A DNA stretch of 64,000 bases, from positions 434,001 through 498,000 of the forward strand of contig NZ_CP045851.1 in the NCBI RefSeq assembly GCF_009650215.1. Direction: 5' to 3'. The DNA comes from Actinomarinicola tropica. Lineage in GTDB: Bacteria; Actinomycetota; Acidimicrobiia; Acidimicrobiales; SKKL01. Below, one piece after another: positions 19,152-63,506 of the stretch (position 1 is the stretch's first letter; each line of letters begins with the position of its first letter). Below the pieces are notes generated by a model that saw only the letters and a program-made list of their open reading frames with translations, made no database searches and was not told where the DNA came from. A program made the position numbers and the translations under genes.

Positions 19152-20331
19152 CTATCGGGTGGCTTCGGTGCCGAGGACGATGGTGGACGTGCACGACAGG
19201 ACGCCGCCACAGCCGTTGGCCACGGCGATCTCGGCCCCCTCGACCTGGCGGTCGCCGCACTCGCCTCGGAGCTGGCGGACCGCCTCGACGAGGACGAACA
19301 TGCCGTACATGCCGGGGTGGGTGTAGGCGAGGCCGCCGCCGTTGGTGTTGGTGGGCAGCGACCCTCCCGGGCCCAGCCGCCCGTCGGCGACGAAGCGCCC
19401 TCCCTCGCCCTTGGGGCAGAAGCCGAGGTCCTCGAGGGTCATGAGGGCGGTGATCGTGAAGCTGTCGTACAGCTCGACCACGTCGACGTCGTCGGGCGTG
19501 ATGCCGGCCATGGCCATGGCCTGCGGGCCGGACACAGCGGCACCGGTGGTCGTCACGTCCCCCATCTGGGAGATCGACATGCCGTGGGTGTGGGCGGTGC
19601 CGGCGCCGAGCAGGTACACGGGTGGGCGGGCCAGGTCACGGGCCCGAGCGGCCGAGGTCACCACGAGCGCCCCGGCGCCGTCGGTGACGAGGCAGCAGTC
19701 GAGCTTGTGCAGCGGCTCGGCCACCATCGGCGACGCGAGGACATCGTCGATGGTGATCGGGTCCTGGTGGTAGGCGTTGGGGTTCTTCACCGCCCACTCC
19801 CGGAACGACACCGCGATCTGGGCGAGCTGCTCGGACGTGGTGCCGAAGTCGTGCATGTGCCGCTGGGCGGCGAGGCTGTAGCTGGCGGCGGGCAGCCCGA
19901 GACCGTAGGGCAGGTCCCACTGGACCAGCGCCGAGTCCTGGGCTCCGATGCCCGGGCCGCCGCCGGCGAAGGGGTTCCACCCGCCCCGCGGCGTCGCCGC
20001 GTACACGATCACCGCCACCTCGCACAGCCCGGCGGCGATGGCCGCGGCGGCGTGCTCGACGTGCACCTCGAAGCTCGAGCCGCCCGTCATCGTCGAGTCC
20101 GTGAACCGGCCGGCCACGCACGCCGAGGCGCTCGCCGAGCTCGAGCGAGCCCATCATCCCGTTGGTGGTCATGAGGCAGTCGACGTCGGCGATGGACAGG
20201 CCGGCGTCGTCGAGCGCGCCGCGGATGACCTCGACCTCCAGCTGGGCGTCCGTCCGACCGAGGGCCCCCGTGGGTGACACGGCATCGACGGCCCCGACGA
20301 TGGCGGCAGCGCCGCGGAGATCGGTGGTCAC
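19152..20331 (-). CDS. Ltp thiolase-fold protein with one frameshift
   Basis: N-terminal part (GTG 20331, GGAGGAA five bases upstream) reads AAAIVGAVDAVSPTG to ELGERLGV, then near 20115-20122 the frame changes and continues AGRFTDSTMTGGSSFEVH to the stop at 19152. Both halves match the Ltp proteins at 1-890 and 10154-11356, and the total length fits a 392-393 residue protein once the frame is restored. The catalytic-site stretch is TGGSSFEV with no Cys; YDSFTITALMTLEDLGF is conserved. The event needs one base removed or two added, unlike the homopolymer contractions elsewhere. Either the copy is inactive or the sequence is wrong there. The start is divergent from the MMPL gene. Confidence 0.8.
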
Positions 20332-20499
20332 GAAGTTCCTCCCGGGTGGGTCGTGGCTGGCCGGTCGGCCGAGGCGGCAGAACATAACACGAGAACCGTC
20401 TCGCGGGTCGGTCGAGCCACTGCGGCCCGATTTGGCCGCTATGAGCGGATCGCTCGTCGCTTCGAAGTACCTGTCGCACAGCTGAGAGCGGGTGATTCG
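20332..20499. promoter_or_regulatory. Divergent promoter region, Ltp/DUF35/FadD operon and MMPL gene
   Basis: 168 bases between divergent starts. On the minus strand it contains the palindrome CGAGACGGTTCTCG (20390-20403), 59-72 bases upstream of the Ltp start and followed by TGTTATGTT, a possible -10 region. A near copy of the element lies at a similar distance before the acyl-CoA dehydrogenase at 48536. This supports a promoter or operator role, but the short length means chance cannot be excluded. Confidence 0.4.
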
Positions 20500-23251
20500 A
20501 TGTCGAGCCTCGGGCGTTGGTGCTTCCGGAACCGGCGGCGTGTGGTGCTGGCCTGGGCCGCCGCGCTCCTGGTCGTGGGCGTTGCCTCCCAAGTGCAGGG
20601 CGCGACGTTCCGCAACGACTTCCGGGGCCACGGGCGCCAACCCGGTGTAGGGCGACACGACGTCGCGGACGCCGTCGCGGGAGGCGACGTCGGCGAAGAA
20701 CGACTCCATCGCGGCCCGCACGCCCGGGTCGTCGATGCTGGGCTCGGCCCGGAACGCCACGGCCAAGGGGTCGCCGGCGAACTCGGGGAAGCGCTCCTGC
20801 AGCAGATCGATGGCTCGCTGGGACTCGGAGTCCGCGACCCCGACCGGACCATCGCCATCGCCCAGGTCCGCCTGGAGGACTTCGGCCCCGAAGCCGACCC
20901 CGACCTCGTCCGGGGGATCATCGAGGACGCGACCCTGCTCTCGGAGCGGGCCGACCTGCAGGTGGACGTGGGCGGGCCCACCTGGCGGGAGGCCGCCGGG
21001 GTCGTGGTCGCCCTCGGGGTCCTCGTCGTCACCTTCGGCTGCCGATCGCCGTCGCCCTCGGCGGGCTGGGCGTGGGGATGGGCCTGGTCGTGCTGCTCAC
21101 CCGGGTGATCGAGGTGTTCACGTTCGCGCCCGCGATGGCGGCCATGATCGGCCTGGGTGTGGGCATCGACTACGCCCTGTTCATCGTCACCCGGTACCGC
21201 CAGGAGCTCCGGGCCGGTCTGGAGCCCGCTGACGCGTGTGCCCGTCCCCTCTCGACCGCCGGCCGAGCCGTCGTCTTCGCCGGCGCCACGGTCGTCGTCT
21301 CCCTCCTGGGCCTGGTCCTCATGGGGGTGTCCATGGTGGTGGGCATGGCGGTCAGCGCCGCACTCGTCGTGTCGTGCACCGTGGTCGCCGCGCTCACGCT
21401 GCTGCCGGCGATGCTCGGGTTCATCGGCCCGTCCATCGATCGCTTCGCTGTCGGTCGGACGCGCCGGGTCGAGGAGGTGGCCACCGACAGCCGCTGGTAC
21501 CGGTGGAGCCGCACCGTCCAGGCCCACCCGTGGCCGGCGATGGCCGTCGCCCTCGTGGTGCTCCTCGGGCTGTCCGCGCCCGTGCTCGCCATGGAGCTGG
21601 GTGGACCGCACTTCGGTGGCGGCCCCGAGACGCAGTCCAGCCGGCGGGCCTAGGACCTCGTCTCCGACGGTTTCGGCGACGGCTTCAACGGCCCGCTGCT
21701 ACTGGTGGCCGAGCTGCCCGGCGGCCCGGCCGCGGCGGGCGACGTGCTCGGCCGGCTGGTGGGCGCCCTGCAGGGTGCCGACGGCGTGGAGCTGGTGGCC
21801 CCCCCATCCCCAACCAGGCCGGTGACACCGCGGTGCTGGTGGTGATCCTGGAATCCGCGCCGCACTCCACAGCCCCCCAGGACCTGGTGCAGCGCCTGCG
21901 CGACGACGTCGTCCCCGCCGCGGTCGGCGGGTCGGACGTGGTGGTTTCCGTCTCGGGAGTCACCGCGCTGTTCGCGGACATGGCCGACCTGTTCAGCCGC
22001 CGGCTGCCCGTGTTCATCGGCGCAGTACTCGTCGTGTCGTTCCTGCTGCTGATGGCTGTCTTCCGGTCGCTGCTGGTGCCCCTGAAGGCAGCGGTCATGA
22101 ACCTGCTGTCCATCGGCGCCGCCTACGGGGTGGTCGTCGCCGTCTACCAGTGGGGATGGGGCGCCTCGCTGATCGGCGTCGACCGGCCGGCGCCGATCAT
22201 GGCCTTCGTCCCCATGATGCTCTTCGCGATCCTGTTCGGGCTCTCGATGGACTACGAGGTCTTCCTGCTGTCCCGCATCCGCGAGGAGTACGACCGCAGC
22301 GGCGACAACGCCACCGCCGTCGCCGACGGGCTGGCGGGCACGGCACGGGTCATCACCGCGGCGGCGGCGATCATGGTGATCATCTTCGGCTCCTTCGTCC
22401 TTGGTGACGACCCGTTCGTGAAGATGTTCGGCCTGGGCCTCGCCGTCGCCGTGTTCGTCGACGCGACCATCGTCCGGATGGTGCTGGTGCCGGCCACGAT
22501 GGAGCTGCGGGGCGACGTCAACTGGTGGCTGCCACGCTGGCTGGAACGGTGGCTGCCCGCGCTCGACCTCGAGGGTGGAGCGGTTGCCGCAGACCCGACG
22601 GGCCCGGCCGCCGATGCTCCCCGGCCCGCGCACGTCCGAGGGGGCGTGGTGGCGTGGCTCGAGTCGCTCACCGACGACGAGCGCGGTCGCGCCGCAGGTC
22701 ACGTGGAGCGTGCGCTCGCCGACGGGGCCGTGACCGCAGCGGACCGCCACGGCAGCAGTGAGGTGGTCCTGCCTCTCGGTCGGCGGACCCGTCGCCTGCT
22801 GCTCACCCCGTCGCCGGAGGGGTACACCCTCGACGTGCGCTCCGGTCGCTCGGCGGAGGTGGACTGGCACTGGTCTGAGCTCCAGGACCAGCTGCTCCGC
22901 TCGGAGCCGGCCCGCGCCTCCTACGAGCAGGTTCGCGGCACGGCCCAGGTGGCCGACCTCCTCCGCTCGCTGCGCGAGGCCCGCGAGCTCAGCGCCTCCG
23001 ACGTCGCCGAGCGGGCGGGCACCACGGTCGATGTCGTCGACCGCCTCGAGCGGGCCGATGGCTCCGTCGGGGTGACCGACCTGATCGGTGTCGGGCAGGT
23101 GCTCGATGCCCGGATCGACCTCGCCGGGAGCGGCGTCGACCGTGTGGAGGCAGGTGGAGCGGCAGGCCCCCCACCCGGCCCTCCGGTTCCGGGGTCCGTG
23201 CTCACCCGCCGCCGCGCTCGTCGGCCACCGCGCCCCGGAGCGCGTGCATGA
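20500..23251 (+). pseudogene. MMPL/RND-family transporter, disrupted, with C-terminal HTH-like extension
   Basis: The N-terminus (ATG 20500, RRRVVLAWAAALLVVG) is an MMPL first transmembrane helix. The extracytoplasmic segment that should follow is encoded on the opposite strand between about 20623 and 20842, then RTIAIAQVRLEDFGPEAD resumes on the plus strand. A frameshift near 21037 (GG for GGG) precedes IGLGVGIDYALFIVTRYR, a TAG stands at 21651 between RRA and DLVSDGFG, and a second frameshift lies in the C-run at 21799. The second half keeps FGLSMDYEVFLLSRIREEY. The last ~200 residues are soluble and include a helix-turn-helix-like region (REARELSASDVAERAGTTVD). MMPL proteins export lipids or hydrophobic compounds. 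As read, it cannot be made. It overlaps the convergent TetR gene by 50 bases. Confidence 0.85.
20623..20842. other. Segment of the MMPL gene in inverted orientation (~210 bp)
   Basis: Read on the minus strand this piece gives SQRAIDLLQERFPEF, then AVAFRAEPSIDDPGVR, AMESFFADVASRDG and VRDVVSPYTG, exactly the porter-loop sequence missing from the plus-strand MMPL frame between NDF and RTIAIAQ. Its ends carry a weak inverted pair, CGGGGCCACGGG (20623-20634) and TCCGCGACCCCG (20831-20842), matching at 9 of 12 positions when one is reversed. Exact breakpoints are uncertain by about 10 bases. Confidence 0.85.
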
Positions 23252-24717: not shown

Positions 24718-24752
24718 TGTTTCACTTCTTCGTCCCTGTAGCTGGAGTTCTC

Positions 24753-25017
24753 ATGACCACCACGACCAGCGCATCGGCGCCGATCCAGACCAGGCGGATG
24801 GCATTCGAGGCGTCTCTGCAGGAGGTGCCTCGCCACTTCGGTGTCGACGGTGACCTCCTGTCCAGCCACATCGCCGCCTGCCTGTCGTCGGTGTTCCCCG
24901 ACGGCGAGGACTTCTTCGTCCGCTCGGTCCGCCGCTTCCGCGACCAGGTCACCGACCCGGACCTCAAGCAGCAGGTCAACGGGTTCATCGGGCAGGAGGC
25001 CGTCCACGGCCGCGAGG
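24753..25017 (+). pseudogene. COG3687/PF10118 metal-dependent hydrolase, N-terminal fragment
   Basis: ATG 24753 (GGAG six bases upstream) opens an 88-codon stretch typical of the N-terminus of predicted metal-dependent hydrolases: TRRMAFEASLQEVPRHFG, FPDGEDFFVRSVRRFRDQV and GFIGQEAVHGRE. The family is normally about 280-300 residues; here the match stops abruptly at the histidine-rich metal-site region near 25017 and unrelated sequence follows without a stop. The central and C-terminal parts are missing, as after a deletion. A second, even shorter fragment of the same family lies at 58124-58216. Upstream is the shared palindrome at 24691. Confidence 0.8.
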
Positions 25018-34792: not shown

Positions 34793-35440
34793 GTGTCCGA
34801 CGGCGACGCGATGGCCGACGGCGGTGTCGTGCTCGGCGACGCCGCCGTGTCCCGCGCCGAGGTGATCGAGGCCAGCCGGCGGGCGGCCACCGGCCTGGCC
34901 GCGACGGGCGTCGGCCCAGCCGACAGCATCGCCGTCCTGCTCCGCAACGACATCCCGTTCTTCACGGTGACGCTGGCGGCGCGGACGCTCGGCGCCTACG
35001 CCGTGACCATCAACTGGCACTGGCGGGCCGGGGAGATCGAGCGCGTGCTCGTCGACTCCGGCGCGAAGGTCCTCGTCGTCCACGCCGACCTGCTGGACGA
35101 GGCCGAGCGGTCGTCCCCGACGGGGTCGAGGTGCTCGTCGCGCCCACGCCGCGGGCGCTCGCCGATGCGTTCGGCATCGATCCCGGCCGGTGCCTGGTGG
35201 ACGACGGCGACACGGACTGGGACCGCTGGGTCGCCGGCTTCGAGCCCTGGAGCCGGGGCCGGGCCGGAGCGGCGGCGAGCATGATCTACACCTCCGGCAC
35301 CACCGGCAAGCCCAAGGGTGTGCGCCGGGCGCCGTTCACGCCCGAGCAGGCGACGGCCCTGGCCGAGATCAACGAGCAGGTCCTGGGGATCGTTCCCCGG
35401 ATGCGCACCCTCATCCCCGCCCCCATGTACCACTCTGGGC
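34793..35440 (+). pseudogene. FadD acyl-CoA synthetase, N-terminal half with frameshift
   Basis: Reading from GTG 34793 (or ATG 34811) gives a FadD N-terminus (GLAATGVGPADSIAVLLRND, INWHWRAGEIERVL) as far as LLDEAER. A one-base loss near 35112 shifts the frame, and VPDGVEVLVAPTPRALAD continues to the A3 motif YTSGTTGKPKGVRRAP and PAPMYHSGP at about 35440. There the match ends abruptly and a hotdog-protein tail begins. The C-terminal two-thirds, including the catalytic Lys domain, are missing. The gene starts 23 bases after the BVMO stop and was probably its operon partner. Non-functional as read. Confidence 0.82.
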
Positions 35441-35603
35441 CTGTCCCATCCAGTACGTCGGTGCGTGCAAGCGCTCCGACCTGGTCTGCCGGGCGACCAC
35501 GGTCCGGCGGGGCAAGGAGCTGACCTTCGTCGACATCGTCGGCGAGGACGACGCCGGCAACCCGGTGGCCCACGCCATCCTCACCTACCGGATCGTGCCC
35601 TGA
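35441..35603 (+). pseudogene. Hotdog-fold thioesterase C-terminal fragment
   Basis: About 50 codons ending at TGA 35601-35603 read YVGACKRSDLVCRATTVRRG followed by KELTFVDIVGEDDAGNPVAH and ILTYRIV. This is the typical last half of a PaaI-type thioesterase: a central helix is missing and the closing strands with the D-x-x-G-x-x-VAH pattern remain. It is fused directly to the truncated FadD, so the junction near 35440 removed the end of one gene and the start of the next. Short length limits certainty. Confidence 0.55.
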
Positions 35604-38764: not shown

Positions 38765-39133
38765 TCACTGCGGATGTCGGGCGCGGGCGGCGGCGAGGCG
38801 GGCGAGCCGGAGCTCGGCGGCCAGGCCGTCGGCCAGGGGCAGGTCGGCGGCGACGCGCAGGGCTCGCTTGGCCACCCGGGCGGCGGCCGGGTCGAGGGCG
38901 GCGAGGCGTCGGGCGACGCCGAGCGCCTCGTCCTCCAGCGCCTCGGGCGCCACCACCCGGTGGACGATGCCGCGGCGGGCGGCCTCGTCGGCGTCGATGG
39001 TCTCGCCGAGCATGACGTGCGGCGTGGCTGCTGGCGCGCCGAGCAGGCGGCCGAGGCTCTGCGTGCCGGCGGCGGCGGGCAGCATGCCGAGCGTGGTCTC
39101 GGGCAGGCCGAGGCGGGTGTCGGCGGCGGAGCA
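38765..39133 (-). pseudogene. Enoyl-CoA hydratase, C-terminal fragment
   Basis: About 120 codons ending at TGA (38765-38767) read [40 protein letters not shown] and [19 protein letters not shown], the second half of a crotonase-family protein with the conserved PE...LGM..GG-like active-site strand. The first half, including the HG/AGAD oxyanion loop, is absent. At about 39133 the sequence changes to an out-of-frame ClpP N-terminus. There is no start codon of its own with a ribosome-binding site. Product unlikely. Confidence 0.75.
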
Positions 39134-39415
39134 GGATCTGCCCCATGCTCGCCGCGAACCCGACCGCCACCGTGGCGACGTCGTTGGGGATCAGCTGCAT
39201 CGTGTCGTAGACGGCCAGGCCGGCCATCACCGACCCGCCGGGCGAGTTCACGTACAGGCAGATGTCGCTCTCCGGGTCGTCGGCCGAGAGCACGAGCAGC
39301 TGGGCAACGAGCCGGTTGGCGCTGTCGTCGTCGACCGGCTCCCCGAGGAGCAGGATCCGCTGGTCGAGCAGGCGGTCGAACGCCGACGGCGGGTGGGAGG
39401 TGAGGTGGTCATGGC
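39134..39415 (-). pseudogene. ClpP-type serine protease, N-terminal fragment
   Basis: The minus strand reads [39 protein letters not shown] and [20 protein letters not shown], then [11 protein letters not shown], where the nucleophile Ser of ClpP is in ASM. Immediately after, near 39133, the ECH fragment begins. The catalytic His and Asp and the rest of the barrel are missing. The likely start codon (ATG near 39415) is one frame away, so a small indel affects the 5' end too. This would be one of several actinobacterial clpP paralogues. It is unusual to find clpP here, which supports rearrangement or misjoining. Confidence 0.75.
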
Positions 39416-40604: not shown

Positions 40605-40711
40605 CGTTTCCCCCTGTGGCCGGGCCGGCGGTGAAGCAAAGACATCCATCTGTTGCATGTCTCGCCGGGGCGATCCTACGCTCGACCGACCACCTCCGCA
40701 GGAGCGAGCCC

Positions 40712-40906
40712 GTGACGACCCTGACCCCGTCGATGATCCCCGACCTCTTCTCACCCGAGGTCACCGCCGACCCGCACCCGGCCTACGCCCGGCTTCGGGA
40801 CCTCGGCCCGGTGTACGACGAGCGCAACGACGTGTGGCTGCTCGCCCGTCACCCCGACGTGCTCGACGCGCTGCACCGGCCGACGGTGTTCTCCTCCGAG
40901 CGATGA
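40712..40906 (+). pseudogene. Cytochrome P450 N-terminal fragment (64 aa)
   Basis: GTG 40712 (GGAG box upstream) begins MIPDLFSPEVTADPHPAYAR-type sequence followed by LRDLGPVYDERNDVWLLAR and PTVFSSER, the standard first 60-odd residues of a bacterial P450 through the B-helix. It then ends at TGA 40904-40906, which overlaps the ATG of the FadD gene. I-helix, ExxR and heme loop are all absent. An internal deletion that joined P450 codon ~64 to the start of the next gene explains this best. It is not close to the two intact P450s of the window. Confidence 0.8.
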
Positions 40907-58008: not shown

Positions 58009-58122
58009 ATGACGGTCACCGACCTGCCGCCCGCCACCGATGCCGCGGAGGTGCCGGACCACCACGTGGTCATCATCGGCGCCGGCTTCGGCGGCATCGG
58101 CGCCGCCATCGAGCTCGAGCGG
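58009..58122 (+). pseudogene. Flavin monooxygenase/BVMO, N-terminal fragment
   Basis: ATG 58009 with a GGAGGACC box starts TVTDLPPATDAAEVPDHHVV and the FAD motif IIGAGFGGIGAAIELERA, then the match ends near 58122, about 38 codons in. What follows is the start of a metal-dependent hydrolase gene on the other strand. All later BVMO motifs are missing. Promoter, ribosome-binding site and start are well formed, so the gene was active before truncation, or the assembly is misjoined here. Confidence 0.75.
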
Positions 58123-58123
58123 G

Positions 58124-58216
58124 CCCGTCGAGGAAGTGGCGGGGCATCCCCTCCTGGCGCTCGATCGACATGCGCCGGGTCGTCACGGACCGTTCAGGGT
58201 GGGTGAGGGTGGTCAT
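58124..58216 (-). pseudogene. COG3687/PF10118 metal-dependent hydrolase, N-terminal scrap
   Basis: ATG 58216 on the minus strand gives TLTHPERSVTTRRMSIERQE and GMPRHFLDG, the same family start as the fragment at 24753 (TRRMAFE...VPRHFG). Only 31 codons remain before the junction with the BVMO fragment at about 58122. The two fragments therefore meet tail to tail, which a simple deletion of adjacent convergent genes would produce. Confidence 0.6.
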
Positions 58217-59709: not shown

Positions 59710-61048
59710 TCAGGCGGTGGAGGCCTCGTCCGTGGAGGCGATCTCGGCGCTGGCCATGTCGCCGAACAGGAACGCGAGCAGCTCGGGGTCGGCCAGGATC
59801 GCCCAGTCCGGCGCCATGAGCTTCGCGTACCGCTCGAAGTACAGGAGCTGCTTCGCCACGAGCACCAGCTCCTGCGGCAGGCGGACCTCGTAGCGGGTGC
59901 CGATGCGAACGATGTCGATCAGCACCTGCCCGTAGCTGATCTCCGACAGCGGCTGGCCGAGGATCGGCTCGACGATCTCGGCGATGTCGGCAGCGGACTG
60001 CTCCAGGCTCGTCGGGTTGAGCACGGCCCCATGTCGAAGATCGCTTGGGCCACCGCCTCGAAGTCGCCGGACACGAGCAGGGCCGGCAGGCCGCGCCGCA
60101 CGATCTCGCGCGTCTCGTCGTCGAAGGACCCGCAGATCCCGAAGTCGAGGAAGACCACCTCGCCGTCGGTGTCGAGCATCAGGTTGCCGGCGTGCACGTC
60201 ACCATGGAAGAAGCCGTGCACGAGCGCCGCCTCCAGCCACGCCCGCACCTCGCGCTTGAGCGCGGCTCCCAGGTCCCATCCGGTGGCCTGCCAGCTCGAC
60301 CAGGTCGTCGATCTTGTACCCGTGCATGCGCTCCATGGTCAGCACGCGCGGGCTGGTCAGCTCCCAGTGCACCGTCGGGACCCGCACCCGCCCGGTGCGT
60401 GGCCGGCGGCGACGATCCGACCGAAGCGCTCCATGGAGCGGGCCTCGACGATGAAGTTGAGCTCCTCGCTCAGCGTGGTGGCGAAGTCCTCCACCACCGC
60501 CACCGGATTGGCCATGCGCCCCTTGGCCGAGACCTTGTCGAGGACGCGGGCGAGCTTGAGCAGGATCCGCAGGTCCGACGACAGGATCTTGCCGATCCCC
60601 GGGCGCTGGACCTTCACCACCACGTCGGACCCGTCGTGCAGGGCGGCGGCGTGGACCTGGGCGATCGACGCCGACGCCATCGGCGTGCGGTCGAACGAGG
60701 CGAACAGCTCGTCGTGGTGGCCGCCGAGCTCGGCCTCGATCACCTCCACGATGTGGCGTAGGCCACCGGGGGCACGCTGTCGAGGCACGCGCGCAGCTCG
60801 TCGGCCAGGACGTCGGGGAACAGGCCAGGGCTCGAGGCGACCAGCTGCGCGAGCTTCACGTAGGTGGGGCCGAGCTCCTCGAAGGACTGGCGGAGCGCCA
60901 CCGCGCCGCGTTCGGCGCGGGGCCGCGGCCCCGGGCACAGGGTGCGCGCGGCGGCCCGGCCGAGGAGGCGAGCGGTGGAGGCGGCGCGCCCCACCTCGCG
61001 GAGTCGCAGGCGCTCGATCTCGCTCGGAACCAGACGTTCGATCCGCAC
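59710..61048 (-). pseudogene. ABC1/UbiB (ADCK-like) kinase with about four frameshifts
   Basis: GTG 61048 behind AGGAGG starts [20 protein letters not shown], then the family motif region [20 protein letters not shown], and after a shift near 60760 ASASIAQVHAAALHDGSDVV and VVKVQRPG with the nucleotide-binding Lys. Further shifts near 60400, 60285 and in the C-run 60027-60030 separate LTMERMHGYKIDDL, HGFFHGDVHAGNLMLD (catalytic loop), VVFLDFGICG (metal DFG) and SEISYGQVLIDIVRIG to the stop. All motifs survive, so it is either recently inactivated or mis-sequenced. UbiB-family ATPases help soluble enzymes reach lipid intermediates of quinone synthesis. Divergent from a homologous fusion gene 86 bases away. 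Confidence 0.82.
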
Positions 61049-61134
61049 GGCAACCTCCTGATGCTGATACAGTGCCGTCTCATCGTTGCATGCGGCGTCT
61101 CCCGGTGCCGCATCGGGAGCACTGGGGGTCCAGG
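61049..61134. promoter_or_regulatory. Divergent promoter between the two ABC1 kinase genes
   Basis: 86 bases hold both ribosome-binding regions and the sequence CATCGTTGCATG (61081-61092), close to GCATCGTTGTA of 24706 and of the MarR/MFS spacer. This suggests that the kinase genes are in the same regulon. Confidence 0.45.
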
Positions 61135-63506
61135 ATGACCGTGACCGAAGCGAGCCCGAAGGTGCCGCCACCACGGGCCCCCGGCGACGCCGACCCGTGG
61201 GAGGTGCAGCTCGACCTCGGGGGCAGCGGCCCCGGTGACGCAGCTCGACTGCTGGAGATCGCCTCCACCCTGGTGCGCCACGGCGCCGTGGTCGCCGTCC
61301 GGCGCGGTCCCTTCATCGTGCTGCGGCTGCGCCGACGGGCCCCCGCGCCCTCCCCGTGGCGCTGCGGCGCAGCTTCGCCGACCTCGGGCCCACGTTCGTG
61401 AAGTTCGGGCAGCTCGTCGCCTCGAGCCCCGGGCTGTTCCCCGACGTGGCCGCCAACGAAATCCGCAGCCTCCTCGACGAGGTCCCCACCATCGCGGCCC
61501 GCGACGTCCATCGCATCGTCGAGCGGGCGCTCGGCCGTCCCGTCGGCGTGGCCTTCGCCGCGTTCGACGACGTACCGCTCGCCGCCGCATCGATCGCCCA
61601 GGTCCATCGGGCCCGGCTCGCCGACGGCACCGACGTGGTCGTCAAGGTCCGCCGCCCGGGGCTCCGCAACCGGGTCGCCCGGGACACCCGGATCCTGCGG
61701 ATGCTGGCGACGGTGCTGGGACGCGCCGGTGGCCGCGGTCAGATCATGAACCTGGTCGCCATCGTCGACGACTTCACCGCCACCTTGCGCTACGAGCTGG
61801 ACTTCCGGAACGAGGCCCGCTGGATGGCGCAGTTCCGGTCCAACCTCGAGACCTTCGACGACAACCGCCACGTGACGACGCCCATGCCGATCGAGGGCAT
61901 GTGCACCCAGCGCGTGCTGGTGATGACCTACGTGGACGGGCACCCGGTCGACCGCCTGGACCTGCTGGCCGAGTCCGGCCACGACTTCGAGGAGCTGCTG
62001 CGCCTCGGCGTGCGCGCCTGGCTCGAGTCGGCCTTCGAGCACGGCTTGTTCCACGGCGACGTGCACGCGGACAACCTGTTCCTCACCCCCGATGGCAAGG
62101 TCGCACTCCTGGACTTCGGTATTGTGGGCCACCTGGAGCCGGCGATCCGGGGGGCGCTGCGCGACGCCCTCCCCGGTCTGCTGCTCGCCGACGACCCGCG
62201 GAGCGTGGTGGAGGCGTTCTTCGCCCTCGGTGCCGTCACCGGGCTGATCGACATCGAACGTGCGGCCGAGGACGTGCGCCGGCTGGTCGCGCCGCTGTCG
62301 GAGAAGCCGCTCTCGGAGATCAGCTACGGCGAGCTGCTGTCCGACGTGTTGCAGGTGGCCGGTCGCCACCGGGTCCGTCTCCCCCGGGAGCTGGTGCTCG
62401 TGATCAAGCAGAACCTCTACTTCGAGCGCTACGCCAAGCTCCCGGCCCCCGGCTACCAGATCCTGTCCGATCCTCGCCTGCTCACGTTCCTCCTGCCCCA
62501 GTACGAGGTGCCGGTGCCGCGGCCGGTGCTCACCACCCGACCCCGCACCCGCCCGCTGGACGGCGATCCCGGTGCCGGCCTCCTCGTCGAGGCGGTCCGC
62601 GACGACCGCTTCGGCTGGGAGTACGATCCGAAGCGTCCCGAGCTGCGCAAGCTCTACGCGAAGGCCAAGCACAAGCAGTGGAACGCCAGTGTCGACATCG
62701 ACTGGTCCATCGAGGTCGATCGCGAGGACCCCGGCGGGCTGTCGGAGTACCTGCCGGTGATGGCGGCCGACGCCTTCGACTCCTTCACCGATGCCCAGAA
62801 GCGCGAGGCCGGTCACGTGTTCAACACCTGGCTGACGTCGCAGTTCCTGCACGGTGAGCAGGGCGCGCTGCTCGCCACCTCCAAGCTGGTCGCCCAGGTC
62901 CCTGACGTCGACGCCAAGTTCTACGGTGCCACCCAGGTAATGGACGAGGCCCGCCACGTCGAGGCCTACGGGCGGTACCTGAACGAGAAGCTGGGCGAGA
63001 TCCACCCGATCAACCCGAACCTCCAGCAGCTCCTCGAGATCATCGTGGCCGACCCGCGTTGGGACGTCACCTACCTCGGCATGCAGATCATCGTCGAGGG
63101 TCTGGCCCTGGCTGCGTTCGGGCTGATCCACCAGTTCTCGACCGAGCCGCTCATCAAGCAGATCACGCGCTACGTGATGGCCGATGAAGCCCGCCACGTC
63201 GCCTTCGGTGCCCTGGCCCTGTCCGGCTACTACGACGAGCTCACCTCGGCGGAGCGGAGGGAGCGCCAGGCCTTCGTCCTCGAGGCGTCGTGGCTGATGC
63301 GCGACCGGTTCCTGGCCACCGAGGTGTGGGAGCGTCTCGGCATCGCGCCGTCCGATGGCCTGCTCGATGCCAGCCGCTCGCCGATGATGCAGATGTTCCA
63401 GCACCTCCTCTTCGCCAAGATCACCCCGAACCTCACGAAGGTCGGGTTGATGGACGAGAAGCTGCGCGATCGCCTCGTGGCGATCGGGGCCATCCCGTCG
63501 TCGTGA
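61135..63506 (+). CDS. ABC1/UbiB kinase fused to a ferritin-like diiron domain
   Basis: ATG 61135 opens a short leader, the C-run 61340-61344 is one base short, and the frame then continues to TGA 63504-63506; corrected length 790 residues. The kinase-like part (about 75-460) has [53 protein letters not shown] (~307) and [10 protein letters not shown] (~326). After a Pro/Arg-rich linker, residues ~500-790 form a ferritin-like oxidase: LHGEQGAL (~568), DEARHVEAY (~604), [11 protein letters not shown] (~652), DEARHVAFG (~683), giving E, ExxH, E, ExxH ligands. In ubiquinone synthesis a UbiB-type ATPase (COQ8) and a diiron hydroxylase (COQ7) cooperate as separate proteins; a fused pair suggests extraction and oxidation of a membrane lipid or isoprenoid. 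Function is inference. Confidence 0.85.

Follow-up and report, generated by a model that had tools for sequence, protein, structure and literature searches.

A segment of about 219 bp inverted within a probable MMPL pseudogene of Actinomarinicola tropica

In a 64-kb stretch of the Actinomarinicola tropica chromosome (G000:C1:434001–498000; hereafter the window), about 219 bp of a gene for an MMPL-family transporter are inverted in place. The most probable explanation, to which we assign a probability of about 0.7, is a one-off micro-inversion scar in a recently decayed MMPL pseudogene, itself part of a decaying accessory stretch of the chromosome. The genome (G000) consists of one contig of 3,715,454 bases (completeness 98.84, contamination 1.31), and the G+C content of the window is 72%. 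Unless marked otherwise, positions are those of the window.

The inverted segment and its register

The MMPL gene starts at 20500 on the plus strand. From there to 20622 it reads MSSLGRWCFRNRRRVV...ATFRNDF, continues with unrelated residues, and returns in the same frame at 20842 with DRTIAIAQVRLEDFG. On the minus strand, the interval from 20841 to 20623 translates into 73 residues, GVADSESQRAIDLLQERFPEFAGD...VRDVVSPYTGLAPVAP (ends also written GVADSESQRAIDLLQERFPEF...VVSPYTGLAPVAP). The N-terminal piece of 41 aa, which extends to the left junction (20500–20622, plus strand), was recognized by its translation, by 32–50% identity to the N-termini of homologs and by profile alignment. Profile scan, alignment and a search in relatives identified the inverted segment (20623–20841, minus strand, 219 bp) as 73 aa of the porter loop, and alignment places the resumption of the gene, in the frame of the N-terminal piece, at 20842–21037 (plus strand).

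We scored 3,009 candidate inversions (starts 20596–20654, ends 20815–20865) as well as the unchanged sequence against a homolog profile. The homolog set held 23 loci, namely 11 from relatives, three from the same genome and nine from a wider scan of genome contigs; L015 and L017 were left out for their incomplete N-termini and the profile was built on the other 21. The best candidates all fell in a single register, in which the start a and the end b add up to a+b=41464. Inversion of 20630–20834 scored 151.3 bits, the pairs from 20624–20840 to 20627–20837 scored 150.1 bits, and those from 20621–20843 to 20623–20841 scored 149.4 bits, compared with 57.7 bits for the unchanged sequence. End points from 20619/20845 to 20630/20834 gave 143–151 bits, and the ends of the segment are uncertain within 20619–20630 and 20834–20845 along a+b=41464.

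Re-flipping thus raises the profile score from 57.7 to ~150 bits, in agreement with the first-pass annotation, in which part of the MMPL gene had been described as inverted in place. The extent given there was 20623–20842. Its left end stands, but its right end is one base too far, and the resulting 220-bp segment scored only 61.3 bits on the same profile because it lands out of frame. After re-flipping, the alignment showed no residues lost or gained at either junction outside the range of the homologs. The register scan and the intact junctions therefore establish that the flip is real in the assembly, spans ~219 bp and is nearly or fully loss-free. Chance alone falls far short of explaining the inverted segment itself.

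The 73-residue piece had no match of its own in Pfam (E ≤ 0.01) or NCBIfam (E ≤ 0.1) because it is too short or too divergent. When searched in relatives, it matched MMPL-like N-terminal loops at 30–48% identity (best E 9.8e-12), which confirms the earlier statement that porter-loop sequence is conserved on the opposite strand of the gap. Matches were found in 27 of 59 genomes (G000 and 26 of its 58 relatives), at 44 places other than the present one (three in G000 and 41 in relatives), each in a stop-free open frame. Protein matches were paired by hand with DNA matches on the same contigs, and in 44 of 44 places the segment lay on the strand of the transporter body. A comparison with relatives had been proposed as a check on the inversion; its outcome is that the segment is uninverted in every matching place, and that the inverted state occurs only at the present locus among all places compared. 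The nine loci returned by the wider contig scan, with a best segment identity of 45–65%, included no near copy of the locus. Since the relatives are distant (67–80% DNA identity for their top listed matches), they do not date the inversion.

Further lesions in the MMPL gene

Several further lesions follow downstream. Alignment suggests a small in-frame loss near 20985–21000. At 21037–21039 (plus strand) frames and alignments mark a frame change at which ~6 homolog residues are missing. The first half of the MMPL membrane part comes next (21039–21650, plus strand; Pfam MMPL PF03176, E 1.1e-32), followed by an in-frame TAG at 21651–21653 (plus strand), which lies inside conserved sequence and has homologs aligning unbroken on both sides. 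The frames show a second frame change in or adjoining a run of C at 21796–21806 (plus strand). The second half of the membrane part then spans 21806–22600 (plus strand, end approximate), where residues 8–245 of the piece from 21800 matched Pfam MMPL with an E value of 6.5e-34. Both membrane pieces match PF03176 separately (21039–21650 and 21800–23251), which places the gene in the MMPL family, and none of the three short pieces before 21038 had a Pfam match at E ≤ 0.01.

Set against the 21 homologs with a complete N-terminus, the gene thus shows the inversion, two frame changes and one TAG, the picture of a pseudogene. Over the compared region, three further MMPL genes in G000 (L057–L059) are each a single open frame. 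If the downstream lesions are real, the TAG at 21651 and the frame changes at 21037–21039 and ~21800 would persist after re-flipping, so that neither orientation would encode a full transporter or yield a working product. Bacterial chromosomes hold pseudogenes with rearrangement scars. The MMPL gene resembles these as a multi-copy family member with more than one disabling lesion, and differs in that its lesions include a segment of ~219 bp inverted in place.

Beyond the membrane part, the same frame continues into a C-terminal extension with an HTH_31-like domain (22601–23149, plus strand; E 8.4e-7, 29.7 bits versus a cut-off of 27). This extension had seven weak matches in relatives, none on contigs among the listed MMPL matches (a partial list), and is perhaps a fusion with a neighbouring gene or perhaps native.

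Scar, assembly error or switch

We scanned for frameshift candidates with a codon-based frame model, which marks same-strand frame changes without a nearby stop; the candidates are mechanical and only some were read by eye. In a first scan, the window (64 kb) contained 11 candidates and 400 kb of G000 contained eight, four of these in L024 (550–570 kb). Two other genomes gave one candidate in 160 kb (G005) and none in 160 kb (G009). A second scan, for which 37 G000 stretches served as training data and which stopped 4 kb short of the window's end, found 18 candidates in 192 kb (ten chunks, 454–650 kb) versus six in 600 kb (the other 30 chunks, four of them chosen because their neighbours had candidates). 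Frameshift candidates are thus in excess around the locus.

Several points weigh against a scar in decaying DNA. The limits of 454–650 kb were drawn after the counts were seen. In-frame stops inside model segments showed no excess, with 21 in 192 kb versus 62 in 600 kb, although this count is crude in that adjoining same-frame genes add to the total. Assembly errors, too, would leave surplus frame changes but no surplus of stops. Moreover, we infer both the reality of the lesions and the fixation of the inverted state from one assembled sequence.

A local assembly or polishing error would mean that the true gene is intact and that weak support for this part of the assembly gave rise to the inverted patch and the frame changes. 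Such an error would fit the clustering of frame changes in one part of the contig, the missing excess of stops and the position of one frame change in a run of C. A loss-free inversion of a single segment, without repeats that could confuse an assembler, would however be an unusual artefact. The lesions of the MMPL gene are also of mixed type (besides the inversion, a residue-losing frame change, a TAG and a second frame change) and not only one-base homopolymer shifts, damage to several nearby genes goes beyond frame shifts to truncation or fusion, and long intact genes lie between the damaged ones. Because the stop counts show no excess, we hold the scar at the probability given above and regard assembly error as the main alternative, less likely but serious.

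The first-pass annotation had left a switch, a scar and an assembly error open. The scar is the best supported of the three, while a reversible switch, that is, an intragenic inverton by which the transporter would be turned on and off or 73 of its residues recoded, is very improbable given the flanking repeat, the lack of a Resolvase match and the further lesions. The flip keeps the reading frame, which stays open through the flipped segment, as would fit a switch. This openness is unremarkable, however, because flipping left 1,162 open out of 1,240 codon-aligned coding segments of 219 nt drawn at random from 20 stretches of G000. The weak flanking inverted repeat of 9 matches in 12 described earlier is present, as is one of 10 in 13, but neither goes beyond chance: among 500 random position pairs 219 bp apart in the window, with the same slack, a 9/12 repeat occurred in 213 and a 10/13 repeat in 119, and the flanking repeat is therefore no more than expected by chance. 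It is also out of register, since this repeat (CGGGG and its flanks) sits at a+b=41465, where an exchange would leave the segment in the wrong frame. At a+b=41464, the working register, the matching inverted stretches are only TC and GGG (2–3 bp).

Our recombinase search covered Resolvase PF00239 (serine recombinases) and Phage_integrase PF00589 (tyrosine recombinases). Resolvase had no match in the genome, with 10 of 14 controls positive. Phage_integrase had 11 matches, which would favour a switch, but the nearest to the locus (454.6 kb) are one at 404.6 kb, ~49 kb away, and one at 525.5 kb, ~71 kb away. The gene would, in addition, be broken downstream in either orientation. The site-specific switch was rejected as the leading explanation on repeat statistics, register and recombinase searches. 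Least probable of all is a reversible recoding inversion of the 73 MMPL-loop residues that works without long inverted repeats and in which the downstream stop and frame changes are sequence errors.

Intragenic invertons are reportedly also the subject of Chanin et al. 2024. A limited literature search did not find the phrase 'intragenic inversion'. PMC11892184 defines invertons by flanking inverted repeats of 10–40 nt. No such repeat flanks the segment; the best is the chance-level 9/12. With the invertons and intragenic invertons described in PMC11892184 and PMC11868660, the MMPL locus shares a reversed DNA segment inside a gene; it differs in its lack of significant inverted repeats and of a nearby Resolvase or Phage_integrase match, and in a gene that appears broken both ways. 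Judged from one sequence, an in-place inversion can mimic an invertible switch. Three checks separate a scar from a switch: which register agrees with the homologs, whether the repeats exceed chance, and whether the gene carries further lesions.

For the one-off scar that we favour, ~219 bp of the MMPL gene would have been turned around within it, with few bases lost or none, and the gene may already have been a pseudogene at that time or may have become one later. Two nearby double-strand breaks could have released the fragment, which would then have been rejoined in reverse by Ku/LigD end joining. Ku and LigD are the basis of end joining in bacteria, according to PMC9638933 and PMC3102665, and the genome has two matches to Ku and one to LigD_N (one of 14 controls positive in each case). 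Alternatively, a template switch could have used the inverted microhomology of the working register, which amounts to 2–3 bp (TC and GGG). The two routes are equally possible. Micro-inversions between human and chimpanzee (PMC8755829) likewise replace a short segment exactly by its own reverse complement; the present case differs in its size of ~219 bp and in having matches of only 2–3 bp in the working register. If the scar is real, it would represent a clean inversion of 219 bp that lost next to nothing and has hardly any homology at its flanks, in a genome with Ku and LigD.

Apparently damaged genes around the locus

To look for further in-place inversions, the frame model was also run over the window, 37 G000 stretches and 16 control stretches. 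The window and G000 yielded 32 opposite-strand segments, of which three had no stop following the upstream flank; the controls yielded 10, of which one had none. The three stop-free segments are the spacer that separates the MMPL gene from the plus-strand gene after it, a junction at 58125, and L038:1794–2465, where inspection by eye only revealed nothing convincing. The scan is weak in that the present case escaped it, the N-terminal piece of 41 aa being too short to be flagged.

The frameshift-rich stretch with truncated or fused accessory genes comprises 20–64 kb of the window together with L062, L024, L066 and L068 (~454–650 kb of G000). Next to the MMPL gene, a thiolase-like gene (19158–20337, minus strand) is split by a frame change at 20118/20119, and a Metal_hydrol fragment (profile positions 1–75 of 247) lies at 24750–25016. 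An AMP-binding enzyme occupies two frames at 34793–35597 (plus strand); it is truncated beyond profile position 216 of 384, and a piece in another frame, without a family match, follows. A piece at 35448–35597 and another at 58121–58216 matched no family and are putatively thioesterase-like and hydrolase-like, respectively.

At 38780–39401 (minus strand), a ClpP fragment (profile positions 9–93 of 182) is joined to a fragment of the enoyl-CoA hydratase family ECH_1 (119–223 of 251). Elsewhere in the genome three full-length ClpP matches were found, and no orphan C-terminal half was listed. DNA identity to the two full-length ClpP genes that matched the fragment was 74–75%, and the fragment is therefore not a misplaced copy of those genes.

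A weak likeness to a cytochrome P450 N-terminus at 40682–40891 (plus strand; E 0.0034 in NCBIfam and well short of the curated cut-off) stops just before an acyl-CoA ligase-like frame. At 58009–58216, a 39-aa N-terminus with weak likeness to FAD-dependent oxidoreductases (E 0.0015) meets the minus-strand start of a small frame, which is perhaps a rearrangement junction. Pieces in two frames at L024:16020–16468 presumably resemble a phage-integrase N-terminus. Toward the end of the window (59713–63503), a minus-strand gene, putatively for an ABC1-type kinase, runs through several frames and adjoins a similar plus-strand gene in one frame.
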